Part shown: piece after piece, positions 972 through 47,053 of the stretch
Position numbering within the stretch: position 1 is the stretch's first letter
How the letters are laid out: every line of letters starts with the position of its first letter
Origin: a virus
IMG/VR virus record: IMGVR_UViG_3300045911_000356
Coordinates: 1-47,190 of that record
DNA length: 47,190 nucleotides
Strand: one strand, 5' to 3'
Notes under the pieces: generated by a model
The model's database searches: none
What the model was told of the DNA's origin: nothing
The model's input: only the letters and a program-made list of their open reading frames with translations
Program-made: the position numbers and the translations under genes

Positions 972-973
972 TG

Positions 974-1119: not shown

Positions 1120-1142
1120 TGTAAAATTATCTTCTACAAATA

Positions 1143-1150: not shown

Positions 1151-1162
1151 CTAATTTTTAAA

Positions 1163-1172
1163 TTAATATATA
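1163..1172 (+). promoter_or_regulatory. phage promoter motif TTAATATATA (endolysin)
   Basis: Exact copy of the motif repeated upstream of many genes in this window, ending 17 nt before the endolysin ATG. It is probably the late promoter recognised through the gp55-like sigma factor. Confidence 0.6.
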
Positions 1173-1189
1173 TATAAAAAATTATAGTT

Positions 1190-1792
1190 ATGGATTACTC
1201 TATATTAAAAGGTAATGTACCTGATGTTGTTTATGAACAAATACCAATGGTTATTGAGAAATTTAATATTAATACACCATTGAGATTAGTTCACTTTTTG
1301 GCACAATGTTCCCATGAGTCAGGTGGATTTAAGATAACTATCGAGAATTTAAATTATTCTGCTGATGGTTTGAAAAAAATATTTGGTAAATATTTCCCTG
1401 GTGATTTAGCTACTCAATATGCAAGAAAACCAGAAAAGATAGCATCTAGAGTATATGGTGGTAGAATGGGTAATGGTGATGAATCAACCAAAGAGGGTTG
1501 GATTTTTAGAGGAAGAGGATATATTCAATTGACTGGCAAGAATAATTATAAATTATTTTCAACATCAATTGGAGAAGATTTAATATCTAATCCTGATTTA
1601 GTTGCTACTAAATATCCACTAGTGTCAGCCGCTTGGTTCTTTGATAGAAATAAATTAAATTCTATTTCAGATAAAGGAATATCTGATGTAGTTATTAAGG
1701 AACTAACAAAGAGAATAAATGGAGGATTCAATGGATTAGAACATCGTATTGCTGAAACAAAAAGATTTGCTAAGTTACTTGGTGTTAAATAA
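1190..1792 (+). CDS. GH19-type endolysin (chitinase/lysozyme-like)
   Basis: A 200-residue glycoside hydrolase family 19 domain that fills the whole protein. The catalytic acid lies in the HFLAQCSHESGGF segment near residue 45. Other family signatures are a run that reads NGDESTKEGWIFRGRGYIQL near residues 95-114, then TGKNNY, and a C-terminal AAWFF segment. Phage GH19 enzymes cut the peptidoglycan glycan strand during lysis. There is no signal peptide or membrane segment, so a holin or host route would be needed; none is recognised nearby. The gene stands alone on the plus strand behind a late-type motif, as expected for a lysis gene, and its last bases overlap a small minus-strand ORF. Confidence 0.88.
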   Translation: MDYSILKGNVPDVVYEQIPMVIEKFNINTPLRLVHFLAQCSHESGGFKITIENLNYSADGLKKIFGKYFPGDLATQYARKPEKIASRVYGGRMGNGDESTKEGWIFRGRGYIQLTGKNNYKLFSTSIGEDLISNPDLVATKYPLVSAAWFFDRNKLNSISDKGISDVVIKELTKRINGGFNGLEHRIAETKRFAKLLGVK

Positions 1793-1952
1793 CTGATCGA
1801 ATAAATTCGATTACTTCAGTTTTTTGATTATTATCTAAAGATGAGTTGATCAGAAATAATTCTAACTTTCTTTTTTTTTCTTCACTCACTTTATCACCTA
1901 AGATTTCATTAATCTTCTTAATTGTTGTTGTTTTTGATTTGATTTTTTTCAT
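1785..1952 (-). CDS. possible small protein, 55 aa
   Basis: A minus-strand reading frame starting MKKIKSKTTTIKKINEILGD and ending EFIRSVI. It is lysine-rich at the N-terminus and amphipathic after that, and would be the last gene of the minus-strand operon. It overlaps the preceding gene by 35 nt in another frame and the endolysin stop by 8 nt. The composition looks coding, but the overlaps on both sides make it uncertain. No family is recognised. Confidence 0.4.
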   Translation of the reverse strand: MKKIKSKTTTIKKINEILGDKVSEEKKRKLELFLINSSLDNNQKTEVIEFIRSVI

Positions 1953-2520
1953 AGTTTAGTATCTGTTTTAATTTAATATCTCTTATAACTTCTTTTAAGT
2001 CTGGGTGAGTATTTTGTAATACTTCCATTATCTTTTCTTTACTAAAGAATCCATCATATCTATTTATTAGATGATCATCATCTACTGTTTGAGTTAGAAA
2101 AGTCATGAATAGATTAGGTCTTAACCTTATTACTAATTTGAAATTTCTATCTTCAATAAGAAATGATTGTTCATACTCTTGACCAAGATTGAATTGACTA
2201 GGTTTGAAACCTATTGATTTAATATAATTTGTAACAAATTCATACCTTTTGTATCTATTGGTTAGTTTTATTTCAGTGTCATAGTAAGCAAATCTAGAAG
2301 GTAATTCTTTGAATTCAGTTTCATCACCTATGTAAAATACATTTTCACCTAATATTTCATCAATAACTATCTCTCTCAAGGTGCTTTTATCTGATCTGGT
2401 CTTTTTTATTTCATTTGAGGTTTTACTATCAAATATGAAATAAACATTTCTAGTTCTTTTAGATAATTCTTCACATTCGTCTATTAACTCTTTCGGTATT
2501 TCCAAATTTTTTAGTATCAT
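1918..2520 (-). CDS. hypothetical protein, 200 aa
   Basis: No recognised domain. A mixed alpha/beta, highly charged soluble protein. I place the start at the ATG at 2520 because it forms an ATGA overlap with the stop of the upstream gene, the same junction used by the neighbouring pair at 2831-2834; a start five codons earlier at 2535 is possible. The C-terminus ends in an asparagine run. It is the fifth gene of the 4874-to-1785 operon, and translational coupling with its neighbours is likely. Confidence 0.65.
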   Translation of the reverse strand: MILKNLEIPKELIDECEELSKRTRNVYFIFDSKTSNEIKKTRSDKSTLREIVIDEILGENVFYIGDETEFKELPSRFAYYDTEIKLTNRYKRYEFVTNYIKSIGFKPSQFNLGQEYEQSFLIEDRNFKLVIRLRPNLFMTFLTQTVDDDHLINRYDGFFSKEKIMEVLQNTHPDLKEVIRDIKLKQILNYEKNQIKNNNN

Positions 2521-2834
2521 TCTTTTTTGAACCAATCTTTTTGTCTTTGATCTATTATTATGAATAATTCTTTTTCAGAAATTTCAGGAATGTAGTCTTC
2601 AGATTCTTTGTATATTTTTTTATAATCACCTTGTATGACGACTTGGTACTTATCGTTTCCGTCTACTGTGAAATTAATGATTAGTGTGAACGGATTTGCT
2701 AATTTACAAGAAGGATTAGTAACCAATTTTTGTTTATTTTTAGAGACTATATTAGTACCCCATTTTTGTATTTTTTTACCTATCCAATGTAGAAATTTAT
2801 TTCCACCAACTTTTAATACAGAATCTTCAATCAT
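2517..2834 (-). CDS. hypothetical protein, 105 aa
   Basis: Unrecognised. The N-terminal third is basic (VGGNKFLHWIGKKIQKWG) and could form an amphipathic helix; the middle is beta-rich. It overlaps both operon neighbours by ATGA junctions (2831-2834 and 2517-2520), which supports both ends. No signal peptide or clear membrane span. Confidence 0.65.
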   Translation of the reverse strand: MIEDSVLKVGGNKFLHWIGKKIQKWGTNIVSKNKQKLVTNPSCKLANPFTLIINFTVDGNDKYQVVIQGDYKKIYKESEDYIPEISEKELFIIIDQRQKDWFKKE

Positions 2835-3055
2835 TTTTTATAGTTTAAATTGTGATCAAATCTTATATTTTTAAAATTAACTAAAGTTTCACAGTTTTCA
2901 TACTCTTCCCTTTCCTCGAAAAAAGATATCATCTTGTCAATGAATTCTTTATCATATGGTTTGAAGTTAGCATCATAATTCTTACCAGATTTTATTCTAT
3001 CTAATCCATCACGCATTAGATATTCATAGCTTCTCAGGACTAATTTATCTTTCAT
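2831..3055 (-). CDS. hypothetical protein, 74 aa
   Basis: A small charged soluble protein of unknown function starting MKDKLVLRSYEYLMRDGLDR. It begins 5 nt after the stop of the upstream membrane-anchored gene and ends in an ATGA overlap with the next gene, so it belongs to the same tightly packed operon. No motif is visible. Confidence 0.6.
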   Translation of the reverse strand: MKDKLVLRSYEYLMRDGLDRIKSGKNYDANFKPYDKEFIDKMISFFEEREEYENCETLVNFKNIRFDHNLNYKK

Positions 3056-3060
3056 AAAAA

Positions 3061-3654
3061 TTAAATTTTATAGTTCTTTAGAAATTCTTTTTCTTCGTTT
3101 GTTAAATTATTTATTCCAACTTTTGATATTTTATCTAAGATATCATCAATGTTAAATTTAGTATTGTTTTCCCTCATTATTTTATCAATATCTGATTCTT
3201 CAATAATTTTCATTTTTTCAGGATTCTTATAAGTTCTCTCAAAATATTCTCTTGAGAGTACAAATCCTAACACTTCAATCACGTCATTTATTTTATCTTC
3301 GAATTTATTCTCGATTGCATTTGATATTGATGATAATATATCTTTTTCAACCATTTCTGATGTGTAGATACATTTATTGTTCTTGAAAATGGCGATATCT
3401 TTTCTGTCCATTATGTAAACAACATTGACATCATCATACTCTTTTAACTTCATGTTGATGTAAACTATGTCATTAACACGGTTTTTGAATTTTGATTTAT
3501 TTGAAAGTATATTATTTAATACCTCCTTAAACTGATCGTTAATTTTTTTAATGAGACTATCTCTTCTTACTCTATCAACATAGTTATCTAAAAAAATTCT
3601 TGTTTGATAACCGATTAAAAATATTAATGTGTATAGTATAATGTTTATTATCAT
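3061..3654 (-). CDS. membrane-anchored hypothetical protein, 197 aa
   Basis: One strongly hydrophobic N-terminal segment (MIINIILYTLIFLIGYQTR) is followed by a basic flank and a long charged soluble domain, so the protein is probably anchored in the inner membrane with the bulk in the cytoplasm. No family is recognised. It follows the nucleotidyltransferase gene after a 41-nt gap that contains a poor match to the phage promoter motif (GATATATAAC). A role in altering the host envelope would be a guess. Confidence 0.6.
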   Translation of the reverse strand: MIINIILYTLIFLIGYQTRIFLDNYVDRVRRDSLIKKINDQFKEVLNNILSNKSKFKNRVNDIVYINMKLKEYDDVNVVYIMDRKDIAIFKNNKCIYTSEMVEKDILSSISNAIENKFEDKINDVIEVLGFVLSREYFERTYKNPEKMKIIEESDIDKIMRENNTKFNIDDILDKISKVGINNLTNEEKEFLKNYKI

Positions 3655-11469: not shown

Positions 11470-14400
11470 ATGCCTTTATTAGATGGTAAGCAATTACGAA
11501 ACGGATCAATTGATCTTAGCAAGCTAAGTGGATCAGGTACTGTTTCGATCCAATCAGGAGCTGTATTATCCTTTTTATCAGGATCTCAGCTTACTACAGC
11601 TGATGCAAATATTAACAATGGTACAGATGTTGTTAACAAAAATTATGTTGATGGTGTAGCTGCTGGTTTATTACCTAAGACTCCGGTACAAGTCGTAGCT
11701 AATACACAATCATTATCACTTTCGGGTGTTGGTATGGTTATTGATGGATGGACCGTGTCAGCCGGAGATAGAATCTTAGTAAACTATCAAGCAGCAGGTG
11801 TTGCTACTGCATCTAATGGTATTTATGTCGCTACGGCTGGTTCTTGGTCAAGAGCTACTGATTCAGATGGTACTCCATCTAATGAAGTTCAACAAGGTAA
11901 TTTCGTTTTCGTTCATGAAGGTAGTACATATATACATAGTGGATGGGTTTTAGCCGAAACAAACGCATCTAATCCACAATCTATTTTAGTTGGTACAGAA
12001 TCACAAAGGTGGGTGCAGTTCTCTGAACAAACAAATATTCAAGCTGGTGATGGTTTATCTTTTACTGGTGTTAATTTAAATGTTAATACTGGTGTCGGTT
12101 TAACAATATCGTTTGATACTGTTAGACTTACAGATACAACTGTTATACCAACATCTTATGGTGGTGCTGCTAACGTTGCAACTTTCACAGTTGATCAACA
12201 AGGTCGTTTAACTGCAGCTTCAAATCAGTTAATTTCTATTCCGAGTGGTCAAGTTAATAACTTTACTGCGTCAGTTATTGCTCTTATTGATGGTGCCGAC
12301 ATTACTGGTGTTACAGCTGGTGCTGGTTTAAGTGGTGGTGGAACACAAGGATTTGTTACACTTGATGTTAATACATCTAATGGTTTAAGTATAGTTAATG
12401 ACTCTGTTGTTTTAGGTGGTACTTTAAGTCAAAGCACGACTATTGATTCATATGGCCAAGATTTTAAAATAATGGATTCAATAAGTGGAAGTTATATTAA
12501 AATGAATTCAAATGGATTTATATCAATTACATCATCAAATGGTATATCAAATACCGCAGATGGTGGTAATATATCAAATGTAGCTGAAGTTATAATAAAC
12601 ACATCGAATATTAGTATATCAAATACAACATCGACTGGAAATATAACAAATACATCAGGGAATGATATAATAAATACAGCGTATTATGATATAATAAATA
12701 CTGCATCAAATGGTATTATATCAAATACTGCATCAGATGGTATATCAAATACAACATCAAATGGTGATATATCAAATACATCATCAAATGATATAATAAA
12801 CACAGCATCAGGTGATATATCAAATACATCATCAAATGAAATAATAAACACTGCATCAAATGGTATATCAAATGGAACATCAAATGGTGATATATCAAAT
12901 ACAACATTAAATGGAAATATATCAAATACATCATCATCTGATATAATAAACACAGCGGATGGTGATATATCAAATACAACATCAAATGGTGATATATCAA
13001 ATACAACATCGATTGGAAATATATCAAATACAACATCGATTGGAAATATATCAAATACATCAGGAAGTGATATAATAAATAATGCAGATAATGATATAAT
13101 AAACACTGCATCAAATGGTATTATATCAAACACTGCATCAAATGGTATATCAAATACAACATCAAATGGTAGTATAATAAATACATCATCAGTTGATATA
13201 ATAAACACAGCATCAGGTGATATATCAAATACATCATCTGATATAATAAACACAGCATCAGCTAATATAATAAACACAGCAGAGATTAATATATCAAACA
13301 CTGCGGATTTTGATATATCAAATACAACATCAAATGGTGATATATCAAATACATCAGGAGGTGATATATTAAATACCGCATCAAATGGTATATCAAATAT
13401 AACATTAGGTGGTAATATAACAAACACATCAGGAGGTGACATAATAAACGACGCATCATTTGGTATTATATCAAATACAGCATCAAGTATAATAAACACC
13501 TCATCAGGTGATATAACAAACACAGCAGATGGTAGTATATATATCACTTCAAATTACGATAAAGTTTCTTTATCGTCATTTAATAATGGTAGTGTATCAG
13601 AAATAAAATTGTCTTCCTCCTCACCAGAGACTATACCAAATAACGGTAGTGATAATGTGATTATTATAACTGATGATGTTTATAATAAAGGTATGGTTTA
13701 TTCTGATGATTACTCAGCTAACTTTACACCTGAGTCATTAGTTTCCAAAAGATATGTCGATTCCGTTGTTACCGGTATTGGTTTAACTGCTGGAAATGGG
13801 TTGGTTAATAATGGAGGTGTAATAGATGTTAATATTGATAACGGTTTAAGTATAGTTAATGACTCTGTTGTTTTAGGTGGTACTTTATCACAAAATACCA
13901 CAATTAATAATGGATCATTCAATTATTTGATGTCATCTACAAGTGGTGATATAATAAACCAACGGGTAGCATTTGGTGTAACACATTCCTCTATAATAGA
14001 TAGTAGTGGGTCCAAGATTAGAACAAATACATCGAGTGGTACTCAATTGGTTGAGGTTACAGACGGTTATGCTCAAATGAATGTTAATGTTGCTGGGTCT
14101 CAATCTTATATAATGATTAGTAACTTTAATATACCAAACGCTGATTCATCCACAAATAATAGAATGGTTGTTAAAGATGATTACTATTTTAAGGGACTTG
14201 TTTATGATGATGACTACTCTGCTAATTTTACTGATAACTCATTGGTATCAAAAATATATGTTGATACCCAAGTATCTTCTGGTGTTACCGCTGGTCAAGG
14301 TTTATTCAAATCTGGCTCAATAATAGGAGTTAGTTACTCGTCTGTTGCTCAAGTTATGAGTGGAGCTGGATTAACTGCGAATGGTGGCGTTTTTGATGTT

Positions 14401-14913
14401 GGTGCGGGTGCTGGTATCACAGTAAGTGCTGATACAGTGGCTGTTGATTATACAGCGGTCGCTGCTCAATTAGCTGGTAATGGTTTATCTGCAAATGGTA
14501 CAACAATCGATGTTAACGTATCAAATGGTTTAACAATCATTAGTGACACTGTTCAAGTTTCATCAAGTATCGCTGGTACAGGATTAACATTCTCATCGGG
14601 TGTTCTATCAGTAATAGCTGGTAATTCTCAACCAGTGTATCAAATTGGTTTAACAACATCTGTTGCTACTGGAGAAACTGGTATATTATTATCATCTACA
14701 CCAAATGCATACTCAAGAATACAAGTATTCGTTAATGGTCAATTGCAAACATTAGGAGATGGTGTTACATCAAGAGATTGTCACTTTGGTACAACGACTT
14801 CAGCTGTTGCTTTATCTTCACTAACTTCGGGTGACCAGCTTGTTTGGAACTCCGGTAATGCAGGATTCTCGTTATCATTAACAGATAGAATTGATATCAT
14901 TTATGAGGCTTAA
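11470..14913 (+). CDS. long tail-fibre protein with solenoid repeat, 1147 aa
   Basis: The largest protein in the window. Residues 1-210 form a widespread fibre domain (LPKTPVQVVANTQSLSLSG, then RILVNYQ, a GIYVATAGSW run and QRWVQF). Residues 210-350 are a linker with GLSIVND and GGTLSQ. Residues 357-690 are about 35 short units of pattern (D/N)I(I/S)NT(A/S/T)S, period near 8, likely a beta-solenoid shaft. Residues 740-1050 repeat the linker (GLSIVND and GGTLSQ again, two DDYSANFT units). The last 100 residues are a tip shared with the 266-aa protein. A long antiparallel ORF over the repeat is a compositional shadow. The block ends at a strong terminator at 14933. Confidence 0.78.
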   Translation: MPLLDGKQLRNGSIDLSKLSGSGTVSIQSGAVLSFLSGSQLTTADANINNGTDVVNKNYVDGVAAGLLPKTPVQVVANTQSLSLSGVGMVIDGWTVSAGDRILVNYQAAGVATASNGIYVATAGSWSRATDSDGTPSNEVQQGNFVFVHEGSTYIHSGWVLAETNASNPQSILVGTESQRWVQFSEQTNIQAGDGLSFTGVNLNVNTGVGLTISFDTVRLTDTTVIPTSYGGAANVATFTVDQQGRLTAASNQLISIPSGQVNNFTASVIALIDGADITGVTAGAGLSGGGTQGFVTLDVNTSNGLSIVNDSVVLGGTLSQSTTIDSYGQDFKIMDSISGSYIKMNSNGFISITSSNGISNTADGGNISNVAEVIINTSNISISNTTSTGNITNTSGNDIINTAYYDIINTASNGIISNTASDGISNTTSNGDISNTSSNDIINTASGDISNTSSNEIINTASNGISNGTSNGDISNTTLNGNISNTSSSDIINTADGDISNTTSNGDISNTTSIGNISNTTSIGNISNTSGSDIINNADNDIINTASNGIISNTASNGISNTTSNGSIINTSSVDIINTASGDISNTSSDIINTASANIINTAEINISNTADFDISNTTSNGDISNTSGGDILNTASNGISNITLGGNITNTSGGDIINDASFGIISNTASSIINTSSGDITNTADGSIYITSNYDKVSLSSFNNGSVSEIKLSSSSPETIPNNGSDNVIIITDDVYNKGMVYSDDYSANFTPESLVSKRYVDSVVTGIGLTAGNGLVNNGGVIDVNIDNGLSIVNDSVVLGGTLSQNTTINNGSFNYLMSSTSGDIINQRVAFGVTHSSIIDSSGSKIRTNTSSGTQLVEVTDGYAQMNVNVAGSQSYIMISNFNIPNADSSTNNRMVVKDDYYFKGLVYDDDYSANFTDNSLVSKIYVDTQVSSGVTAGQGLFKSGSIIGVSYSSVAQVMSGAGLTANGGVFDVGAGAGITVSADTVAVDYTAVAAQLAGNGLSANGTTIDVNVSNGLTIISDTVQVSSSIAGTGLTFSSGVLSVIAGNSQPVYQIGLTTSVATGETGILLSSTPNAYSRIQVFVNGQLQTLGDGVTSRDCHFGTTTSAVALSSLTSGDQLVWNSGNAGFSLSLTDRIDIIYEA
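12540..13540 (+). repeat. degenerate short tandem repeat encoding the fibre solenoid
   Basis: About 1 kb of near-repeats of an ATATCAAATACAACATCAAA-like unit, mostly 21-27 nt long and interspersed with ATAATAAACACAGCATCA-type units. All copies keep the reading frame, encoding alternating ISNT and IINT units. Units differ by whole codons, as expected for expansion by slippage or recombination under protein-level selection. Confidence 0.85.
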
Positions 14914-25545: not shown

Positions 25546-26238
25546 TTAAACATCAATTTCGTTGGCATTTATGTAGTCAACTTTTACTTGACCATTATTC
25601 ATCCCCGGCTCTTTTTTGACAAATTTTCTTTTACAGTAAACAACCGTTACTTTATTATCCTTTGGTGATTTACTATTTTTTTTGGCAATTGATGCTGCTT
25701 TTTTTATTACTTCGTTTGTTGGTAATTTATCATTTACTCTTATTACTATGTGACTACCAGGTACACCTTTTGCATGCATCCATATATCTTCTTTATTAGC
25801 TATATTGAATGTTAAATGGTCATTTGACAAAGCATCTTTACCTATATAGATTGTAAATCCGTCAATTTCCATTTTTTTAATATTAGGAAATTTATTTTTT
25901 TTAGACTCATTAAATAAACTAAAATTCATTATTTTACTTTCTTTTATGTTATCCAAACAAAAATCAGTGAATTTATCCCAGTCACCTTTTTCTATATTAC
26001 CAATTTTTAATGATATCAATTCTTCTTCACCTTTAAATATATAATAATTTGTTTCGTTTTCTTCGATTCTCTCCTCAACACAACTATAAGGTGGATTATT
26101 AAAATCTTCAATATCCATATCATCATATATTAATTTATTACAAATATATGCGTATATCCCAGTTAAGTTATTAAAGTATTTTATTATTATATTTTGATCG
26201 TCATTCCGATTTTCAATTAATAGATATTTGCCACTCAT
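25546..26238 (-). CDS. NFACT-R (RqcH/NEMF-type) domain protein, 230 aa
   Basis: The C-terminal half is a well conserved NFACT-R domain: the segment GFTIYIGKDALSNDHLTF (127-144), then EDIWMHAKGVPGSHIVIR (150-167), then KVTVVYCKRKFVKKEPG (196-212) follow the family pattern, including DxWxHxKGxPGSH. In RqcH and NEMF this part helps bind obstructed 50S subunits and tRNA and supports Ala tailing. The N-terminal NFACT-N domain and coiled coil are absent; residues 1-120 are unrelated and unrecognised. It may therefore capture or block the host rescue pathway rather than replace RqcH. The motif TTAATATATA lies exactly 4 nt before the ATG, and a terminator separates it from the capsid gene, so it is an independent late transcript. 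Confidence 0.86.
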   Translation of the reverse strand: MSGKYLLIENRNDDQNIIIKYFNNLTGIYAYICNKLIYDDMDIEDFNNPPYSCVEERIEENETNYYIFKGEEELISLKIGNIEKGDWDKFTDFCLDNIKESKIMNFSLFNESKKNKFPNIKKMEIDGFTIYIGKDALSNDHLTFNIANKEDIWMHAKGVPGSHIVIRVNDKLPTNEVIKKAASIAKKNSKSPKDNKVTVVYCKRKFVKKEPGMNNGQVKVDYINANEIDV

Positions 26239-26317: not shown

Positions 26318-28009
26318 TTAGTTAAGTAAACCTTTACTGTCATCAACTTTGATAGTCATGAACTGCTTTTGAGGGAACCAACCTACCTCAGCGATTGCAT
26401 AACGGCTTCTTAATAACATTCTTGGAGCGAATGTTGCTTCAGAAATAACAGTAATAGACTGAGCCATTAAGTAAGGTACGAAAATGATACCTGGTTGGTC
26501 AGGATTGTTCTTTCTACCAAGAACGATTCTGTTATCGTTATACTTCATATATGGATCAACGTAGATAGAGATATCTCCGATAGAACCTACTGGGTATAAT
26601 TGACCTTGAGCATTCATCTTAGATTTAACTGGGTTAATTGTATAACCTGCAATATCTTGAAGAGCCGCAGCAAGACCTCCGTTTGTGATTAGATACTGAG
26701 CAGGACCAATACGACCTTCAGTTGCTATGTAGTTCGAAGCATGAGCTATCTTAGTGATAAGTTTTCTTTGAACTGCATGTGTAGTTTCACCACCAACGTT
26801 AGTACCAGCGTAAGCTGTATCTAAGTCAAATATTGTCATATTTGGGATGTTATTTAAACCAGAATTAGAAAGAGGAGCTGATTCTCTGTTAAGATCACCC
26901 ATTTCAAAAATCTTAGCAACTATTTGCTTAGAGATTGTTTGAGATAATTCGTTAACAAGTATAGATTCCATTTTTTGAACTATATCCATACCTGTGTTAG
27001 CTTTAATGTCTTCGATTTCAGTCCTTCTTAATGCTGAACTTACTTCAATAGTACCAACTGCAATTGTTTTAGAAGAAATCTTAGGACCGATAACACCTGC
27101 GTAGCTATCATCATCTTTTTGACGATCCATTGGGTAGTTTCCAGCGAATCCTGTTGTGCTTGACATCCAGTTAGCTGAAAATCCTGGGATATGATCTTCA
27201 AGAGCTGATACTAATTCAACTGTTAAGTTACCAGAACCAGAAGTTACTGATGCTGTACCGATTGTTGTGATTTGATCAACCATTGATTGTGTTGGATTGA
27301 ATGTGTTTCTTGTTTGATCGAATGACCAAAGTGTGCTTGCTGTATTAACCGCGGTGTGAGCTGTGTTAAATTGTCTGTAAGCTCTGAACATTGGGTATCC
27401 GTCAATACGAGAGAAACCTAAGAACTCAACAATACCAGCTTTTGAACCAGTTGGCTCAGTAGCTGTATTTACAGTAGGACCGTAGATATTTGTAAACCAT
27501 CTACCAGTTAAACCACCTTGAGTTTGTTGACCAGCGTTTGCAGTTAAAGTAGCGTTAACTAAAGATCTTTCAGTTGCATTAGCAATATTTAATTTGAAAA
27601 CTTGTGGTCTTTCATCTTGAGCCCCTAAACGAGTATCATCGTATTGGAAGTCGATGTAAAGTAAATCGATTTTTGGACCCGGAGAAGGCTTAACAGCTAC
27701 TAAATCAAGACCAATTGTATGAGCTGCAATTTTCATAGCTACTGGTAAAAGGTTCTGACCAACATCACCTGAACCAACTAATGTTGAGTTATTACCTATT
27801 GTTTGACCAGCTAATAATGATGGTTGAGGAGCAACAACTGCACCCATACCTGCTAAGTTAGATGCGTTAACGTAAGCGTTTTCGTTGATAGAGTGATACT
27901 CAGCGTATTCAGACATCCAATCAATTTTCTCACTGTTAACACCCATGTTCTCAAGAACTGGAGACCATTTCTTGATTGCTTTTTGTTTGTCTATTCTAAT
28001 GTGTGACAT
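26318..28009 (-). CDS. gp23: major capsid protein, T4 gp23-like
   Basis: A 563-residue HK97-fold major capsid protein of the T4 type. Supporting blocks are KKWSPVLENMGV near the N-terminus (as in gp23 KWKPLLEG), IAVGTIEVSSALRRTEIEDI in the E-loop/spine region, a GDISIYVDPYMKYND strand at about 478-492 and the C-terminal RSRYAIAEVGWFP. In T4 the protease gp21 removes the first 65 residues after an L/I-x-E-type site; here candidate sites lie around residues 32-45 (SEYAE, SINEN). It follows the protease-scaffold gene in the conserved order portal, protease, capsid. A TTTATATATA box 32 nt upstream and a strong terminator suggest a separate, abundant late mRNA. Confidence 0.95.
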   Translation of the reverse strand: MSHIRIDKQKAIKKWSPVLENMGVNSEKIDWMSEYAEYHSINENAYVNASNLAGMGAVVAPQPSLLAGQTIGNNSTLVGSGDVGQNLLPVAMKIAAHTIGLDLVAVKPSPGPKIDLLYIDFQYDDTRLGAQDERPQVFKLNIANATERSLVNATLTANAGQQTQGGLTGRWFTNIYGPTVNTATEPTGSKAGIVEFLGFSRIDGYPMFRAYRQFNTAHTAVNTASTLWSFDQTRNTFNPTQSMVDQITTIGTASVTSGSGNLTVELVSALEDHIPGFSANWMSSTTGFAGNYPMDRQKDDDSYAGVIGPKISSKTIAVGTIEVSSALRRTEIEDIKANTGMDIVQKMESILVNELSQTISKQIVAKIFEMGDLNRESAPLSNSGLNNIPNMTIFDLDTAYAGTNVGGETTHAVQRKLITKIAHASNYIATEGRIGPAQYLITNGGLAAALQDIAGYTINPVKSKMNAQGQLYPVGSIGDISIYVDPYMKYNDNRIVLGRKNNPDQPGIIFVPYLMAQSITVISEATFAPRMLLRSRYAIAEVGWFPQKQFMTIKVDDSKGLLN

Positions 28010-28092: not shown

Positions 28093-30171
28093 TTAGATGT
28101 TTTTGAATCTTTCCATTATAGCTTGGACTTCTTTATCAGAAAGTTTATCTTCTTGTATTAAACTTTCATGTGACACAAGCTTCTTAGTAACAGATTCATT
28201 TTTTTTGAGATTTCTAGTTAACCAGAAATGCTCAATTTGATTTTCAGTTTTTAATACATCTTCTGGGTATAATCTAGCTTGTGATAAGATAGACTTTTTA
28301 GAAGATTCATTTAACTGATTCCAGATTGGCTTAATGTTTTCAGGCATCAATCTGATTATTCTTTCTTCAAGAGATTCATTCTTAGATGAAAGTGCTTCAG
28401 CGATCAAAGAAAGTACATCTTTCTGTGTGAAATAACTTCTTTCGTTTATGTGAAGTTTAACAGTTTCTTGTTCTTCTTCTGATAGTGCATAAAAGCTATC
28501 AACTTGTGACTTGTTCAAGAATTTTAAGAAATTCAAGTCAGTTGATTCAGAAACTTTACGTTTTTTAGCTTCTTCAATTAATTTATCAATAGATTTAGAT
28601 AATTCTGTATCTGATTTGCCTTCGTATGTTGATTCTTCTTCATCTTTATTATCTTCCTCTTCTTCTTTATTATAAACCTTTTCTGAGTTAACTTTAGAAA
28701 CACCATTTAATTCACAAGGTTCACATACTTCTTTTTCCTCTTCTTCCTCTTCTATATTTTCAAAACCAGCGTCTTGCAATGAAGGGAAAGATTCTTCAAC
28801 AGATTCAAATAATTTACCACTGTTTAATTTCTCAACGATCATTCCTTGATAAGAAATAGATTTGTCAAGATTTTCAGCGATATATTCAGAATATGCAATG
28901 TTGTCATCTAAATGTTCGGCAATGTACTCAGAGTAAGCAATGTTACCTTCGATATGTTCTGCTAAATATTCAGAATATGCAATTGAGTTATCAACATGTT
29001 CAGCAATATATTCAGAATAGGAAATATTCTTGTCAAGATTTTCAGCTATATACTCAGAGTAAGCAATATTCTTATCTAAATTCTCAGCTAAATACTCAGA
29101 GTAAGCGATGTTCTTATCAAGATTTTCAGCAATATATTCAGAATAAGAAATATTCTTGTCAAGATTTTCAGCAATATATTCAGAATAAGAAATATTCTTA
29201 TCTAAATTCTCAGCTAAATACTCAGAATATTCAATGTTTTTGTCAAGATTCTCAGCAAGATATTCAGAGTAGTTAATTGCTTTCTCTAGATTCTCAGCTA
29301 AGTAGTCATTGTGCTTAATAAGCTTTTCAGCTGTTTCTTTTAGAGATTTATTTTCATTAACAACAACCTGTACTTTTTCAGCCAAGTAATCAAGATATTT
29401 AATCACTTGTGAGTTAGTTTTGTTTAATTCTTCATAGTATTCAATTAACTGCTCAAGTTTTTTAGGGTTCATATTACCCTTAGTGATGGCACTTTTAACT
29501 TCTTTTTTAGTAGAAGCTATTTCATTAACTAAGTACTGAGAGTATTCAGTTAATTGTTTTTTTGTAACATAATCGTTCTTATTCATGTTAAATATCTCAT
29601 TTATTTTGGACTCATCGGACATTTCATATATCCTAAAGTTAGATTTTGGGTTTGTGTAACCTAGAGACTCATTAAGAACTTTAACACTCATTTTAGCAGA
29701 TGAGAAACCCGGATCCGCAACAATGTCATAAGTGAATAGCTTCTTTAATGAAACAGATCCATCAGATTCGGTAATACCTGCTGCTCTGGAAGAAACAAAA
29801 ATAGGACACCCGTCATCGACAAGAGCCTTAGCTTCTTTACCCCAGTAAGTATTAAGTAATTTGATTTCACCTTCTACTTTGTTTGATTCTTTTACATAAG
29901 AAGCTTTGGTAATAATGTGAGATGCTCTTGAAAGAGAAGTGTCAAATACATCGGGGTGATCAAACTCCCCATATACAACACCTAAGCTTTTAATTCTTTC
30001 ATTAAGTTCATCAAGAGCAGGAAGGAATTTATCAGCGGTATATATTCTTTCGTTACGGTTTTTAACTCCGAACTCGGTAAAAGTACCGCCTAAAACATAA
30101 TCCTTCTTACCAGCACTGTTCTCTCTTATAAGAGAGCTAGTTGAATTTTCTACAATTAAAACTGGTTTCAT
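28093..30171 (-). CDS. gp21: prohead protease fused to scaffold-like coiled coil (gp21-gp22-like)
   Basis: A 692-residue protein in the position of T4 genes 21 and 22. Residues 1-175 are a gp21-type serine protease: likely catalytic His72 in VYGEFDHPD and Ser127/128 in FVSSRAAG, with the substrate-site segment GGTFTEFGVKNRNERIY near 28-44. T4 gp21 is about 210 residues and scaffold gp22 is a separate gene; here about 500 further residues follow. Residues 291-447 are a 14-residue repeat (YSEYIAENLDKNIS-type, two heptads, coiled coil), each with LAE, IAE or IVE, which fits the T4 protease site L/I-x-E. Then comes an acidic stretch (450-520) and a helical C-terminus. It would drive core assembly and later destroy itself. 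Confidence 0.9.
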   Translation of the reverse strand: MKPVLIVENSTSSLIRENSAGKKDYVLGGTFTEFGVKNRNERIYTADKFLPALDELNERIKSLGVVYGEFDHPDVFDTSLSRASHIITKASYVKESNKVEGEIKLLNTYWGKEAKALVDDGCPIFVSSRAAGITESDGSVSLKKLFTYDIVADPGFSSAKMSVKVLNESLGYTNPKSNFRIYEMSDESKINEIFNMNKNDYVTKKQLTEYSQYLVNEIASTKKEVKSAITKGNMNPKKLEQLIEYYEELNKTNSQVIKYLDYLAEKVQVVVNENKSLKETAEKLIKHNDYLAENLEKAINYSEYLAENLDKNIEYSEYLAENLDKNISYSEYIAENLDKNISYSEYIAENLDKNIAYSEYLAENLDKNIAYSEYIAENLDKNISYSEYIAEHVDNSIAYSEYLAEHIEGNIAYSEYIAEHLDDNIAYSEYIAENLDKSISYQGMIVEKLNSGKLFESVEESFPSLQDAGFENIEEEEEEKEVCEPCELNGVSKVNSEKVYNKEEEEDNKDEEESTYEGKSDTELSKSIDKLIEEAKKRKVSESTDLNFLKFLNKSQVDSFYALSEEEQETVKLHINERSYFTQKDVLSLIAEALSSKNESLEERIIRLMPENIKPIWNQLNESSKKSILSQARLYPEDVLKTENQIEHFWLTRNLKKNESVTKKLVSHESLIQEDKLSDKEVQAIMERFKNI
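28831..29301 (-). repeat. 42-bp in-frame repeat encoding 14-residue cleavage-site units
   Basis: Twelve units with LAE/IAE/IVE at residues 291, 305, 319, 333, 347, 361, 375, 389, 403, 417, 431 and 445 (first residue), exact period 14. A further LAE at 263 keeps phase (28 before 291). DNA copies differ at silent sites, so the repeat is old or held by selection. The ORF on the opposite strand is a shadow. Confidence 0.9.
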
Positions 30172-30313: not shown

Positions 30314-30712
30314 ATGATTCTTACAAGAGAAATAAACATTAAGATAAATGAATCCAACTATTCTTATTATGAGGATTTGGGATATGATGTTGCTATAGGT
30401 GAAATAATTACAATACCTATTGAACTAATATCAAGAGGATCTCATTATAAGATTAAGTGTAAGTGTGATGGGTGTGGTGTTGAAAAGGATGTCATATTTA
30501 AGAATTATGTTAAATATGATAATAAGTGGGGTGAATATTTTTGTAGAAAATGTTCAGAGAAGAAAAGAAAAGAAACACTTAGAAAAAATTTTGGTGTTGA
30601 TTATCCTATACAGAATAAGATAGTTCTTGACAAAATGAAGACTACTCTTATGGAGAAGTATGGTGTTGATAACATTTCTAAGAGAGATAAGAAAAGTGAA
30701 AAATCTGTTTAA
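30314..30712 (+). CDS. truncated homing-endonuclease-like protein (zinc-ribbon N-domain only), 132 aa
   Basis: The sequence YSYYEDLGYDVAIGEIITI (17-35), then CKCDGCGVEKDVIFKN and CRKCSEKKRKETLRKN (two CxxC pairs, a zinc ribbon), then FGVDYPIQNK and KYGVDNISK units, is the DNA-binding front of a phage homing-endonuclease family. The nuclease domain is missing: the frame stops at 30712, and 5 nt later another frame reads NYQLYVKSD, like the linker that normally precedes the nuclease. It is probably a dead or truncated endonuclease. It lies on the plus strand between minus-strand head genes, a typical insertion point for selfish elements. Confidence 0.6.
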   Translation: MILTREINIKINESNYSYYEDLGYDVAIGEIITIPIELISRGSHYKIKCKCDGCGVEKDVIFKNYVKYDNKWGEYFCRKCSEKKRKETLRKNFGVDYPIQNKIVLDKMKTTLMEKYGVDNISKRDKKSEKSV

Positions 30713-30931: not shown

Positions 30932-32641
30932 TTAGAATTCGAATTCACCGCTGGATTCTCCAGATTCTCCACCGGCTTCTTCGCTTCCACTTTCGGTTGT
31001 TTCTTGTGATACTCCTGTTTCTCCGCCAGATTCAGGTGTTGCTTGTGATCCGGTCGTTTCGATGCCTTCGGATCCAATTTCACTACCCTCAGATCCACTT
31101 TCTGTTGTTGATCCAGATGATGATGAATCTTTTAGCCAGTACTTTTTATTTTCCTCTTTTTCTTCTGGTGTTAATTTAAATATGTGATCCATAATATAGT
31201 CAATATGGAAGTAAGGTTTTTCACCATTCATTATACCAAGCATTGTATTTACAATGTCAGCTTTCTTTTGAATGTTTCCTAATTTTTTCCATTCTTCAAA
31301 CACTTGGTTTGAGTTGAAGTTAATATCTATTTGATTCAAGAATGATTCATCATTCTTTAACTCTGGGAACTCTATTAGAATTTGCAGTTTAATTGGTTTA
31401 ACAATTAATTCCTTGAAGTTTGCTCTTAATCTATTGATGAAGTTAGAGAACTTAATCTCATCTCTTGTCATCTCAGCAGCATCTGTGAATAGATTACCGC
31501 CACCATTTTCTTTTTCAAATCTTTGAAATGGTATCTTTGATGCTCTTTTTAATGCATTGTAGAACCAAGTTAACATGTCTGACTCATTCAGGTTGTGTCC
31601 TTCTGGTGACACTAAATCCATTTGTGGTGTACCAGCGTCTCCCTCAGGAAACCATATTTGTTTATTATATGGTAAGTGCTTAGATCCATTTATAGTTAAT
31701 GTACCTAAAGTATCATCCCATTCAACCTCTTCTGAATAGTCATGTATTAATTGACCAATTTGTTCTTCGGCTCTTTGTCTTGACATACCTTTAATAGGTA
31801 TTGTGAATTTTTGATAAACTGTGGCGTTAATAATATTGAACATTATTCTTGTTTGCTCAAGAATCTTTAATTGATTATAAGGCTTTATTAACCCTTCAAC
31901 ATAAGAAGTTTCTGAATAGTCATTTTGCGTAGCATATGATATATAAACTATTTGCGAGTCTAAGAATATTCTCCTTAATTGAGGATCTTCTGGATATTGA
32001 ATCCATAAATGTCCTATACTTGGTTCATATGCTGGAACTAGTGTTTCTGGTCTTAATCTATTAAATCCAATGATGTTTTTCTTTTTATCATCATATATGA
32101 TTTCCATTGCAATAAATCCATCAATTAGGAAATCTTTCATCATGTTCCATGCTGTTATATTGTCTGAGAATCCAAATTTATTATAGATTTTCTCGAAATA
32201 TTCTTGATACTTATCTTTTATTTCTTGTGAATAATCATTTGATAATGGTTTAGGTGAACAAAAATCTTTATCGTTATATACGATAGTCTCATCTGCTATT
32301 GTACTAATAAAGTCTCTAATTTCATCCTTTATCGAATATTCTCTTAATATTCTTCTTTTATCAGCATAAGATTTGTCTAAATATGGAATAGATTTTCTAT
32401 TTAATACAGAAGCTACGGCCCTTTGTGAGAAAAAATCGTACATGCTATTTCCTCTAGCAGCTAATGGATCTTCATTTATTCCAATACCTACTTGGTTTCT
32501 GACGATCATATCGTCATAGTTCATTCCATAGTTTGAAAGATTTCTTAATATTCTACTAAATAACCCTTTATTTTCAATAGCTGTATTGATGTATATTCCG
32601 CCTGTGTTTCTTGAGTTAAATGGATTATATGATTGAGCCAT
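30932..32641 (-). CDS. gp20: portal protein, T4 gp20-like
   Basis: A 569-residue portal. Family blocks include the NLNESDMLTWFYNALKRASK segment and the following IPFQRF (about 355-380), then AAEMTRDEIKFSNFINRLRA (about 395-414), the equivalents of the T4 gp20 stem/wing motifs YFRRKLYKALNVP and ITRDELKFTKFVQRLR. It forms the dodecameric ring through which DNA is packaged. The last 60 residues are a Ser/Gly/Glu-rich tail that T4 gp20 lacks in this form. It lies upstream of the protease gene, with an inserted homing-endonuclease fragment between the two, and a TTAATATATA motif lies 22 nt before the ATG. Confidence 0.93.
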   Translation of the reverse strand: MAQSYNPFNSRNTGGIYINTAIENKGLFSRILRNLSNYGMNYDDMIVRNQVGIGINEDPLAARGNSMYDFFSQRAVASVLNRKSIPYLDKSYADKRRILREYSIKDEIRDFISTIADETIVYNDKDFCSPKPLSNDYSQEIKDKYQEYFEKIYNKFGFSDNITAWNMMKDFLIDGFIAMEIIYDDKKKNIIGFNRLRPETLVPAYEPSIGHLWIQYPEDPQLRRIFLDSQIVYISYATQNDYSETSYVEGLIKPYNQLKILEQTRIMFNIINATVYQKFTIPIKGMSRQRAEEQIGQLIHDYSEEVEWDDTLGTLTINGSKHLPYNKQIWFPEGDAGTPQMDLVSPEGHNLNESDMLTWFYNALKRASKIPFQRFEKENGGGNLFTDAAEMTRDEIKFSNFINRLRANFKELIVKPIKLQILIEFPELKNDESFLNQIDINFNSNQVFEEWKKLGNIQKKADIVNTMLGIMNGEKPYFHIDYIMDHIFKLTPEEKEENKKYWLKDSSSSGSTTESGSEGSEIGSEGIETTGSQATPESGGETGVSQETTESGSEEAGGESGESSGEFEF

Positions 32642-36853: not shown

Positions 36854-37942
36854 ATGAATAAAATAATGCTAGAGTATATTTGGTTGGATGGTAATAACCC
36901 TCAACAACTAAGAAGTAAGACTAAAATCGTTGATAAAGTAGATACTTTTCTAGCTAAGGATTATCCTGTTTGGTCATTTGATGGTAGTTCAACCAATCAA
37001 GCTAACTCTGGAAAGGGAAAGAATACAGATTGTTTATTGAAACCTGTATATGTCACATTGGATCCATTTAGAGGTGGTAATAATAGATTAGTTCTGTGTG
37101 AAGTGTTGAATCCTGATTTAACACCGCATTCGTCAAATAATCGACATAAATTAGTTTCCAAATTAAAAGAATTGAATATTGACGAGAATTCAACACCTAT
37201 GTCATTATTGCCTTGGTTTGGATGGGAGCAAGAATATACTTTGACACACAAACCAGTTTCGCCATTTTCAGAGGGTGTTGGATTGCCACTTGGCTTTTCA
37301 CCTGGTATGTCACCAAGACCACAAGGTGATTACTATTGCGGAATTGGATCAGATTCTGTTGTTGGTCGTGAAATTGTAGAAGAACACATGCGTAAGTGCA
37401 TTGAGATAGGATTAAATATTTCTGGTATAAATTCTGAAGTTTTATTGGGTCAATGGGAATATCAAATAGGACCTGTGAAACCACTTGATGGTTCTGATCA
37501 ACTATGGATATCAAGATACATATTACAAAGAGTTGCTGAGAAACACAATGTCAATGTTTCATTACACCCAAAACCTATTGAGGGTGATTGGAACGGAACG
37601 GGATGTCATGTTAATTTCTCAACTAATGAGATGAGAAGTGAAGGTGGTATAGATATTATCGAAGAAACAATGAAGAAGTTAGAAAAAGCACACAATGAAC
37701 ACATCAGTGTTTATGGTTTACATAATGAAAAGAGATTAACAGGCAAACATGAGACATCTGGTATACATGAATTTAGTTATGGATACAGTACTAGAGATAC
37801 ATCTATAAGAATCCCAGCTCAGGCTATTATAGATAAGAAAGGGTATTTTGAAGACAGAAGACCAGCTTCTAATTGTGATCCTTATTTAGTGTCTAGTAGG
37901 ATGTTACAGACAGTTTATAGTAAAGTAGAAGAGTTAGTATAA
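36854..37942 (+). CDS. glnA: glutamine synthetase, type II (eukaryote-like)
   Basis: A full-length 362-residue GSII that makes glutamine from glutamate, ammonia and ATP. Diagnostic blocks: YIWLDG (8-13), WSFDGSSTNQA (40-50), WFGWEQEYTL (121-130, metal-binding E125/E127), PQGDYYCGIG (156-165), GINSEVLLGQWEYQIG (191-206, E195/E202), GDWNGTGCHVNFST (244-257), NEKRLTGKHET (291-301), SIRIP (317-321) and YFEDRRPASNCDPY (331-344). No catalytic residue appears lost. GSII is the short, eukaryote-type enzyme; many Bacteroidetes rely on GSIII, so the phage copy is unusual. It may sustain nucleotide synthesis under nitrogen limitation or have been adapted for another ligation. A degenerate motif (TTAATATAAT) precedes it and a strong terminator follows. 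Confidence 0.95.
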   Translation: MNKIMLEYIWLDGNNPQQLRSKTKIVDKVDTFLAKDYPVWSFDGSSTNQANSGKGKNTDCLLKPVYVTLDPFRGGNNRLVLCEVLNPDLTPHSSNNRHKLVSKLKELNIDENSTPMSLLPWFGWEQEYTLTHKPVSPFSEGVGLPLGFSPGMSPRPQGDYYCGIGSDSVVGREIVEEHMRKCIEIGLNISGINSEVLLGQWEYQIGPVKPLDGSDQLWISRYILQRVAEKHNVNVSLHPKPIEGDWNGTGCHVNFSTNEMRSEGGIDIIEETMKKLEKAHNEHISVYGLHNEKRLTGKHETSGIHEFSYGYSTRDTSIRIPAQAIIDKKGYFEDRRPASNCDPYLVSSRMLQTVYSKVEELV

Positions 37943-44036: not shown

Positions 44037-44867
44037 TTAATTAATAAAAGAATATTTTTTTATCAATTTTATCAATTCACTTTCTGTTTTAGGCTTTCTT
44101 ATTTGGTCTAGAAAATCGATTAATCTATCAAGAAAAATTGAATCTCCTTGAATAATATCCATATCGTTAAATAATTCTATTTTATCTTTATCCTTAAATA
44201 AATTCCATATTTGAAATACTGGGTTAAATTGACAGTAGAAATCACCACCAATCCATTCTGGACTGCCTTCTAGTGAAATTAATTTGTTATTGTCACAGTA
44301 GAAATTTCCACCAACCGATTTAGGACTTCCTTCTAGTGAAATTAATTTGTTGTTGTCACAGTAGAAATCACTACCAACCGATTTAGGACTACCTTCTAGT
44401 GAAGTTAGGTTGTTATTGGAACACCAGAAATCCCTACCAACTGATTTAGGACTACCTTTTAGTGAGGTTAGGTTGTTATAGGAACAGTAGAAACCCCCAC
44501 TAATCGATTCGGGACTGCCTTCTAGTGAACTTAGATTGTTATTACGACAGTAGAAATCATCACCAACCCATTCAGGAGCATCTTCTAGAGAGGTTAGGTT
44601 GTTAAAAGAACAGTCGAAATCTCCACCAACCGATTTAGGACCTCCTTCTAGAGAGGTTAGGTTGTTAAAGGGACAGTAGAAATTACCGGTAACATTTCTA
44701 AATTTAATGGGTATTTTATCCAATTCTTTATAGGATAGATCAACATCACCATCTACATCAATAGATCCATCACTATTTATAGTAAAATTTTGTATACTGT
44801 ACTCACTACATGTTGATTCAATATCCTTGTTGGATTCAAATAATCTGTATTGAATTAGGTGTTTCAT
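44037..44867 (-). CDS. leucine-rich-repeat protein with capsid-targeting-like leader, 276 aa
   Basis: Start chosen at 44867 because it gives MKHLIQYRLFESNKD, lies exactly 4 nt after a TTAATATATA motif and matches the two paralogues upstream; an in-frame ATG 11 codons earlier would cross the motif. After a 60-residue N-domain ending KELDKIPIKFRN come about 8 units of 21 residues (NNLTSLEGSPKSVGGDFYC type), a short LRR variant with a Cys/Asn ladder. The C-terminal 65 residues (FNDMDIIQGDSIFLDRLIDF) are shared by all four paralogues. It is probably a protein-binding solenoid; the partner is unknown. Confidence 0.78.
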   Translation of the reverse strand: MKHLIQYRLFESNKDIESTCSEYSIQNFTINSDGSIDVDGDVDLSYKELDKIPIKFRNVTGNFYCPFNNLTSLEGGPKSVGGDFDCSFNNLTSLEDAPEWVGDDFYCRNNNLSSLEGSPESISGGFYCSYNNLTSLKGSPKSVGRDFWCSNNNLTSLEGSPKSVGSDFYCDNNKLISLEGSPKSVGGNFYCDNNKLISLEGSPEWIGGDFYCQFNPVFQIWNLFKDKDKIELFNDMDIIQGDSIFLDRLIDFLDQIRKPKTESELIKLIKKYSFIN

Positions 44868-44871
44868 TATG

Positions 44872-44881
44872 TATATATTAA
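44872..44881 (-). promoter_or_regulatory. phage promoter motif TTAATATATA, 4 nt before an ATG (LRR 1)
   Basis: Minus strand reads TTAATATATACATAATG. Confidence 0.65.
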
Positions 44882-45771
44882 AGGATAAATTTATAATCAT
44901 TAATTAACTTTCTTAATTCTTCTTCACTTTTAGGCTTTCCTATTTCGTCTAGAAAATCGATTAATCTATTAAGAATAATTGAATTTCCTTGAATAATATC
45001 CATATCATTAAATAATTCTATTTTATCTTTATCTCTAAATAAATTCCATATCTGTTCTACTGGGTTATTTTTACAGTCGAAACGACCATCAATTGATTCC
45101 GGAGCACCTTCTAGTGAAATTAGTTTGTTATTAGAACACCAGAATTCACTACCAACCCATTTAGGACTGCCTTCTAGTGAAATTAGTTTGTTATTGCAAC
45201 AGAAGAAAACACCACTAACTGATTTAGGACCGCCTTCTAGTGAGGTTAGTTTGTTATTAGAACAGAAGAAACCACCACTAACCGATTTAGGACTGCCTTC
45301 TAGTGAGGTTAGTTTGTTAAAGGAACATTCAAAATTTCTACCAACTGATTCAGGACAGCCTTCTAGATAGGTTAGATTGTTATAGGAACAGTTGAAATCA
45401 CCGCTAACTGATTCAGGGCCTCCTTCTAGTGAAGTTAGGTTGTTATAGGAACAAATAAAATCCCCAAAAATCAATTTAGGACATCCCTCTAGTGAAGTTA
45501 GTTTGTTATTACGACAGTATAAATGACCACCAACCGATTTGGGACAACCTTTTAGTGAAGTTAGATTGTTATTGGAACAGTAGAAATTACCACTTACATT
45601 TCTAAATTTAAGGGGTATTCTATCTAATCCTTTATCAGATAGATTAACATTACCATTCACATCAATAGATCCATCAATATTTATAGTAAAACTTTGTATA
45701 CCATATTCTTTACATATAGATTTAATATCCTTATTAGATTCAAATAATCTATATTTAATTAAATATTTCAT
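44878..45771 (-). CDS. leucine-rich-repeat protein with capsid-targeting-like leader, 297 aa
   Basis: Starts MKYLIKYRLFESNKDIKS, with L-F-E at 9-11. The N-domain (about 60 residues) is followed by roughly 9 units of 21 residues (NNKLTSLEGCPK type) and the common C-terminal domain. The stop overlaps the promoter motif of the next gene, so each paralogue carries its own promoter in a head-to-tail array. It differs from its neighbours mainly in repeat number and in the variable positions of each unit. Confidence 0.78.
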   Translation of the reverse strand: MKYLIKYRLFESNKDIKSICKEYGIQSFTINIDGSIDVNGNVNLSDKGLDRIPLKFRNVSGNFYCSNNNLTSLKGCPKSVGGHLYCRNNKLTSLEGCPKLIFGDFICSYNNLTSLEGGPESVSGDFNCSYNNLTYLEGCPESVGRNFECSFNKLTSLEGSPKSVSGGFFCSNNKLTSLEGGPKSVSGVFFCCNNKLISLEGSPKWVGSEFWCSNNKLISLEGAPESIDGRFDCKNNPVEQIWNLFRDKDKIELFNDMDIIQGNSIILNRLIDFLDEIGKPKSEEELRKLINDYKFIL

Positions 45772-45775
45772 AATG

Positions 45776-45785
45776 TATATATTAA
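45776..45785 (-). promoter_or_regulatory. phage promoter motif TTAATATATA, 4 nt before an ATG (LRR 2)
   Basis: Minus strand reads TTAATATATACATTATG; the motif overlaps the stop codon region of the upstream paralogue. Confidence 0.65.
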
Positions 45786-47053
45786 AGGATAAATCTATAA
45801 TCCTTAATAACCCTTCTTAATTCTTCTTCACTTTTAGGCTTGCCTATTTGGTCTAGAAAATCGATTAATCTATTAAGAATAATTGAATCCCCTTGAATAA
45901 TATCCATATCATTAAATAATTCTATTTTATCCTTATCCTCAAATAATTTCCATATTTGATAGACTGGGTTATATTGACAGTTGAAATAACCTCCAATTGA
46001 TTCCGGAGCACCTTCTAGTAAAATTAGTTTGTTATTAGAGCAATAGAAATCTCTAACAACCGATTTAGGACCGCCTTCTAGTGAAGTTAGGTTGTTATTG
46101 TAACACCAGAAATCTCTACCAACCGATTTAGGACCGCCTTCTAGTGAAGTTAGGTTGTTACTGTGGCAGTAGAAACCACCATCAACCGATTTAGGACCGC
46201 CTTCTAGTGAAATTAGTTTGTTATTAGAACACCAGAAATCTCCACCAACACATTTATGACCGCCTTCTAGTGAAATTAGTTTGTTATTGTTGCAGTAGAA
46301 ATTCCCACCAACCGATTTAGGACCGCCTTCTAGTGAAGTTAGGTTGTTATTGTAACATTTGAAATGACCACCAACCGATTTAGGACCGCCCTCTAGCGAA
46401 GTTAGATTGTTATTGAAACAGTGGAAATCTCCACCAACCGATTTAGGACCGCCTTGTAGTGAAGTTAGGTTATTATTGTTGCAGTAGAAACTCACACTAA
46501 TAGATTCGGGACAACCTTCTAGTGAAGTTAGGTTGTTATAGGAGCAGTAGAAACTACCACCAACCGATTTAGGACCCCCTTCTAGTGAAGTTAGATTGTT
46601 ATTGTCACAATAGAAATCCCTACCAGCCGATTTAGGACAGCCTTCTAATGAAGATAGGTTGTTATAGGAACAAATAAAATCACTACCAACTGATTCCGGT
46701 GATCCTTCTAGTGAAGTTAGGTTGTTATAGGAGCAGTTGAAATCACTACCAACTGATTCCGGTGACCCTTCTAGTGAAGTTAGATTGTTATTGTAACAGT
46801 AGAAATGACCACCAACCGATTCAGGACAGCCTTCTAAAGAGGTTAATTTGTTATAGGAACAGTTGAAATTACCACTTACATTTCTAAATTTAATGGGTAG
46901 TTTATCTAATTCTTTACCGGATAGATCAACATCACCATTTACGTCAATAGATCCATCTTCATTTATAGTCCAATTTTGGATACCATATTCCTCACATATC
47001 GACTCAATATCTCCGGTAGATTCAAATAATCTATATTTAATTAAATATTTCAT
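45782..47053 (-). CDS. leucine-rich-repeat protein with capsid-targeting-like leader, 423 aa
   Basis: The longest complete paralogue. Leader MKYLIKYRLFESTGD, N-domain, then about 15 units of 21 residues (for example GGPKSVGGDFYCSNNNLTSL) and the shared C-terminal domain. In DNA the units are 63-bp near-repeats, so repeat number can change by recombination. The variable positions (the residue after Phe/Cys and those before NNLT) would line one face of the solenoid. Confidence 0.8.
   Translation of the reverse strand: MKYLIKYRLFESTGDIESICEEYGIQNWTINEDGSIDVNGDVDLSGKELDKLPIKFRNVSGNFNCSYNKLTSLEGCPESVGGHFYCYNNNLTSLEGSPESVGSDFNCSYNNLTSLEGSPESVGSDFICSYNNLSSLEGCPKSAGRDFYCDNNNLTSLEGGPKSVGGSFYCSYNNLTSLEGCPESISVSFYCNNNNLTSLQGGPKSVGGDFHCFNNNLTSLEGGPKSVGGHFKCYNNNLTSLEGGPKSVGGNFYCNNNKLISLEGGHKCVGGDFWCSNNKLISLEGGPKSVDGGFYCHSNNLTSLEGGPKSVGRDFWCYNNNLTSLEGGPKSVVRDFYCSNNKLILLEGAPESIGGYFNCQYNPVYQIWKLFEDKDKIELFNDMDIIQGDSIILNRLIDFLDQIGKPKSEEELRRVIKDYRFIL

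Follow-up and report, generated by a model that had tools for sequence, protein, structure and literature searches.

This locus raises the question of what a 14-residue repeat is for when it lies in the same reading frame as a prohead protease and presents a potential site for that protease in every unit: does it serve to dismantle a scaffold, or only to build one? The initial annotation of the window (i.e., the whole stretch of 47,190 nucleotides of viral DNA analyzed here, the source record of which is a 47-kb fragment) had placed the ORF at positions 28093 to 30171. These coordinates were right; the strand, which had not been given, is minus.

A gp21-type protease fused to a putative scaffold

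The gene is situated between the portal and major capsid genes, and the features needed to follow the first part of the argument are these:

30932 to 32641, minus strand: portal protein of the T4 gp20 type (Pfam Portal_T4, 6.8e-60)
28093 to 30171, minus strand: prohead protease-putative scaffold ORF of 692 aa, fused in all 80 IMG/VR relatives
29692 to 30171, minus strand: protease domain (aa 1 to 160) of the T4 gp21/Peptidase S77 type, from profile and fold matches
29956 to 29958, minus strand: catalytic His72 (T4 His85), from alignment to T4
29791 to 29793, minus strand: catalytic Ser127 (T4 Ser140), from alignment to T4
26318 to 28009, minus strand: major capsid protein of the T4 gp23 type (Pfam Gp23, 4.4e-29)

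As originally annotated, the N-terminal domain is a member of the T4 gp21/Peptidase S77 family, with sequence, profile, fold, and the catalytic His and Ser all in agreement. A PHROG profile search matched residues 5 to 267 to the head maturation protease PHROG_207 (E = 1.6e-29); the Pfam S77 match (2e-4) was under the gathering score. When solved structures were searched with the single fusion protein, i.e., without a profile of its relatives, no match was obtained, and the structure of T4 gp21 (5jbl) was found by a profile, A2, built from 46 relatives (E = 0.004). The AlphaFold2 model, from the input alignment of which two rows from another collection were left out, matched the same structure in Foldseek (E = 1.2e-8; probability, 1.00; TM score, 0.66 over the target). 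Since the confidence of the whole model was moderate (mean, 62) and its pTM low (0.29), this protease match is the only part of it that we used as structural evidence. Both His72 and Ser127 are invariant in A2; of the serine pair 127/128 put forward initially, it is residue 127 that aligns with T4 Ser140 and is catalytic, and residue 128 is not.

The resulting gene order can be written gp20-[21::22]-23. In 92 of 92 loci, the gap between the fusion and the capsid gene is 23 to 95 nucleotides, and therefore no separate scaffold gene fits ahead of the capsid gene. T4, 121Q, Cassandra, SCTP-2, and S-TIM4 each have a separate scaffold gene after the protease gene, and a single tblastn alignment piece of the fusion protein spans both the protease and the scaffold genes of 121Q. 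The interval on the portal side is more variable (37 to 117 nucleotides in some relatives and 625 to 3402 in others); in the window, it holds a 132-aa fragment matching DUF7487 (30314 to 30712, plus strand), which resembles the N terminus of a 599-aa protein in locus L083 and is possibly homing endonuclease-like. Immediately downstream of the capsid gene, a protein with an NFACT-R RNA-binding domain is encoded (25546 to 26238, minus strand; PF05670, 6.6e-15). Elsewhere in the window, we noted a phage-encoded glutamine synthetase (36854 to 37942, plus strand; PF00120, 1.2e-18), three tandem paralogues of approximately 20-residue NNNLTSLEGGPKSVGGDFYC repeats (44037 to 47053, minus strand), and a tail fiber-like protein of 1147 aa with many ISNTTSNGDISNTS repeats (11470 to 14913, plus strand).

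Fusion and repeat are common to all 80 IMG/VR relatives and to five huge-phage genomes of 634 to 735 kb, phages of this size being predicted to have Bacteroidetes as hosts (PMC7162821). A sister group, consisting of L083 (from a 462-kb phage) and L091 to L111, has kept both at 34 to 40% identity. Two further phages, Lak-B6 (547 kb; TAG read as Gln), in which a related C-terminal domain is also present, and the cultivated Tenacibaculum phage pT24, with an annotated 527-aa fusion, carry the fusion without the 14-residue repeat, and the fusion of protease and scaffold is thus older and more widespread than the ladder. The fusion itself is not what is new about the locus, for this reason and because herpesviruses have one as well (PMC4498786).

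The 14-residue repeat and its [LI]xE sites

Downstream of the protease domain, three regions follow one another:

28810 to 29397, minus strand: 14 repeats of 14 aa (aa 259 to 454), putative scaffold helix, modeled as a helix over aa 279 to 449
28831 to 29301, minus strand: twelve-site ladder as first described (aa 291 to 447), read from the sequence
28612 to 28809, minus strand: acidic linker (aa 455 to 520), predicted to be disordered (pLDDT < 50 over most of it)
28207 to 28614, minus strand: conserved C-terminal helical domain (aa 520 to 655), shared with Lak and, by eye, with pT24

The sequences LAE, IAE, and IVE do recur from residues 291 and 305 up to 445, with a spacing of exactly 14, twelve times, and with the last Glu at 447. 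However, the true total is 14 units; LAE263 and LKE277 lie in register upstream of the ladder, so that [LI]xE is present in 14 of 14 units. The consensus, YSEY[LI]AENLDKNI[AS], points to tandem duplication, and the twelve sites are therefore not independent chance events. For the same reason, their regularity is unsurprising; what wants explaining is their retention. All 80 IMG/VR relatives have kept the repeat, with 12 to 16 units each and numbers differing by whole 14-mers, and because it is conserved among them in spite of many synonymous codon changes, it must be under selection and is no assembly artifact. Matches of the repeat to bZIP, PSCyt2, T4SS_LegC2C7, and tail fibers were far under the curated cutoffs or represented coiled-coil noise and were discarded.

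As regards a possible coiled coil, the AlphaFold2 model has a single long helix over residues 279 to 449 (pLDDT, ~70), but it is a model of a monomer, in which coiled-coil partners cannot appear, and two heptad frames compete within the repeat. As for the C-terminal domain, we ruled out gp22, to which it matched with a probability of 0.2%. Its own model had a pTM of 0.35, so that its matches in the viral library, the best named of which were annotated prohead protease or scaffold proteins, carry little weight. Similarly, the scaffold region matched no scaffold PHROG (T4 gp22 itself matches phrog_237). On the basis of position and composition, then, and not of sequence homology, we infer that this part of the protein is the equivalent of gp22; contact of its C-terminal domain with the capsid protein is a possibility.

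In T4, gp21 cuts at L/I-x-E (PMC9026906), as the initial annotation had stated, and two predicted sites outside the repeat follow the same rule:

29668 to 29676, minus strand: LNE166-168 followed by Ser, putative protease/scaffold release site, with [LIV]-N-E present without exception in the relatives examined
27881 to 27889, minus strand: INE41-43 followed by Asn, where maturation cleavage of the capsid protein is predicted, from motif conservation

At the end of the protease domain, Asn-Glu is invariant, the next residue is Ser or Ala in most relatives, and the sister group has VNE throughout. In the capsid protein, [ILM]-x-E followed by Asn (by Ser in one case) was found at the expected place of N-terminal trimming in every relative examined. 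Autocleavage of gp21 itself has been treated for T4 (PMC9026906, PMC9958956).

We then counted [LI]xE against composition shuffles. Residues 169 to 692 of the fusion contain 29 such sites, with 14.5 expected (z = 4.5), and the part of the scaffold outside the repeat contains 14, with 8.3 expected (z = 2.4); the capsid (z = 1.0) and portal (z = -1.3) proteins of the window showed no enrichment in the same shuffles. Within the repeat, the test is weak, since any repeat is periodic and E-x-[LI] is enriched there even above [LI]-x-E. Separate scaffolds that lack such a repeat are enriched too, namely, those of T4 (gp22; 16 versus 5.8), 121Q (24 versus 6.8), SCTP-2 (23 versus 9.4), Cassandra (19 versus 8.9), and a cyanophage (12 versus 5.1), as is the pT24 fusion (18 versus 7.7). 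For the sister-clade scaffolds, z is 4.3 to 4.9, including L083, in which the ladder has decayed (16 versus 6.5; z = 4.3). Scaffolds of the gp22 type are thus generally rich in [LI]xE.

A proposed self-digesting scaffold and its alternatives

We consider it probable that the gene encodes a self-digesting polyprotein, in which a gp21-type protease is followed by its own scaffold and cuts the latter at L/I-x-E sites, those of each repeat included. In this scaffold, a long helix built of two-heptad repeats, each 14 residues in length, would be followed by the acidic linker and the conserved C-terminal domain; the prohead would be formed by the fusion and the capsid protein together. The active protease might then free itself after LNE168, trim the capsid protein after INE43, and break down the scaffold wherever L/I-x-E occurs, the exposed Glu in every repeat unit being among these sites, and fragments of approximately 14 residues would leave ahead of DNA packaging. 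The predicted 14-mers have calculated MH+ values of 1658.79 (NLDKNISYSEYIAE), 1642.80 (NLDKNIAYSEY[IL]AE), 1610.73 (HVDNSIAYSEYLAE), 1608.75 (HIEGNIAYSEYIAE), and 1652.74 (HLDDNIAYSEYIAE). Against this reading, it may be said that an intact helix needs local opening before it can be cut and that membership of the scaffold class is based on position and composition.

The main alternative, which we regard as unlikely, is that the repeat is structural only, a tandemly duplicated unit of a coiled coil or core lattice in which the Glu makes interhelix or capsid contacts and the [LI]xE pattern arises incidentally; cutting by the protease would then be confined to the release site and a handful of sites in the linker, with the helix exiting mostly whole. 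The enrichment of E-x-[LI] that comes with periodicity fits this alternative, whereas the enrichment of related scaffolds without the repeat does not, and neither does the digestion of T4 gp22 to small peptides (PMC9958956). Conservation of the Glu at position 6 of the unit, scored after the repeat register had been set with that position masked, can be read in both directions. In the main clade, Glu6 is the least variable of the 14 positions (693 of 728 units, or 95%; entropy, 0.39), but in the core repeats of 41 close sequences, Tyr0, Glu2, and Tyr3 are just as invariant (0 changes), and P3 switches among Ile, Leu, and Val (42 changes), with Val in approximately 9% of repeats. The sister clade, moreover, has lost Glu6 in 32% of its units though it kept the repeat, often has Val at P3, and conserves position 9 (D/N) to a comparable degree. 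On the other hand, Glu6 is located at an exposed heptad position (b or f), and at greater depth it outlasts other polar positions: Glu6 is retained in 23 of 24 units of L081 and L082 and in 54 of 79 sister-clade units, compared with 15 of 24 and 31 of 79, respectively, for Glu2. Least variable in the sister clade are the first Tyr and then the aliphatic P3 and the Glu at P1, with P2 free.

Taken with gene order, the helix, and the [LI]xE enrichment, this conserved and exposed P1 Glu argues for the self-digesting scaffold proposed at the outset. That every rung is necessary is made less likely by the Val at P3 and the Glu-less units of the sister clade. The ladder is best read as a clade-specific refinement that a self-digesting protease-scaffold polyprotein would have acquired.

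A role as a length ruler, with repeat number setting the size of the core and hence of the capsid and with cut sites secondary, would suit the variation by whole units (12 to 16) and the presence of the largest known phages among the carriers but is most unlikely, as unit number does not scale with genome size (13 or 14 units in several genomes of 636 to 735 kb and 12 in the 462-kb sister phage), the 547-kb Lak-B6 has no units at all, and close relatives differ by 1 or 2.

Two huge phages also encode small separate proteins with three or four units of the same 14-residue repeat (L118, LR756501, 735 kb, positions 1123 to 1746; L130, LR745206, positions 1453 to 1704, minus strand). The site reads, e.g., IAE, ISE, LCE, or LKD; one of the proteins has a collagen-like linker and the other a basic tail. 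Perhaps these proteins are targeted to the core. We speculate, as a distinctly improbable extension, that the scaffold is both nested and self-erasing, with 14 residues as the unit of assembly and of degradation alike, which would yield uniform peptides able to leave a very large capsid, and that in the small proteins the repeat serves as a tag that gives access to the core and can be removed.

A possible internal start and comparison with known systems

The T4 head contains approximately 580 copies of gp22 to 55 of gp21 (PMC9958956). A fusion would force a ratio of 1:1, and a nested scaffold-only product would therefore explain an excess of scaffold. Three features bear on this:

29620 to 29622, minus strand: Met184, candidate internal start, leader in the 99th percentile of in-frame internal Met codons
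29584 to 29586, minus strand: Met196, candidate internal start, leader likewise in the 99th percentile
29602 to 29649, minus strand: codons 175 to 190, peak of raised synonymous constraint around Met184

Genes in this DNA have A-rich leaders, as is the case for translation starts in Bacteroidetes (PMC6847099), and with such leaders, a Shine-Dalgarno reading of the AGGA ahead of Met184 was not favored. In a leader model, 41 of 45 nonredundant members, distant ones included, had their best internal start where protease and scaffold meet (8.3 expected), and the start of the capsid gene has a synonymous constraint peak similar to that at the junction. A scaffold-only product from Met184 or Met196 is thus quite conceivable, if short of probable. 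We find it somewhat probable that only the full-length fusion is made, with the A-rich junction reflecting a Lys/Asn-rich linker and the constraint at codons 175 to 190 an unrelated DNA element, e.g., a promoter. In line with this, synonymous shuffles at the junction gave P values of mostly 0.1 to 0.3 per sequence, the pT24 and Lak-B6 junctions have no strong A-rich leader, and synonymous conservation is also raised across the C-terminal half of the gene (28207 to 28730, minus strand). The choice concerns the internal start alone; a self-digesting scaffold is compatible with either.

Of the known systems, T4 gp21 and gp22 resemble the fusion in protease fold, catalytic residues, the order portal-protease-scaffold-capsid, a predicted mostly helical scaffold dense in L/I-x-E between the protease and capsid genes, and an [ILM]xE site near the N terminus of the capsid protein; they differ in being two genes, in the lack of the 14-residue repeat, and in that no sequence similarity was found between gp22 and the C-terminal domain of the fusion. 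Closer in layout are the pT24 "prohead core scaffold" (BAV39266.1, 527 aa), enriched in [LI]xE and with a C-terminal domain related by eye, and the Prevotella Lak phage fusion (581 aa; TAG = Gln), with a C-terminal domain matching at an E value of ~1e-5. Both join a protease to a scaffold-like region, but instead of the repeat, they have an acidic or irregular middle region.

Phage lambda C/Nu3 is likewise a protease-scaffold fusion with a nested scaffold, although its protease belongs to an unrelated family and it has no repeat ladder. In herpesvirus UL26/UL26.5, one ORF encodes a protease and then a scaffold (PMC4498786). The single ORF, the junction release site (putative here), and a possible in-frame scaffold-only product are points of likeness, whereas the protease family and specificity differ, and cut sites are few and form no ladder; in a fold search, the similarity was weak and nonsignificant. 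What is new here is the strict periodicity only, for the theme of a scaffold that is rich in cut sites and destroys itself is already that of T4 gp22, which is broken down to small peptides.

Our literature search found no biochemical data on how capsids are built and cleared in the largest phages (634 to 735 kb). If the proposed reading is true, a single protein would offer a minimal expressible system in which one repeat couples assembly of the scaffold to its removal, and the natural variants, with the ladder present, partly decayed, or absent, would test the part that cut-site spacing plays in the clearing of large proheads. The locus also bears on how a protease and a scaffold that are fused may be maintained in unequal numbers.
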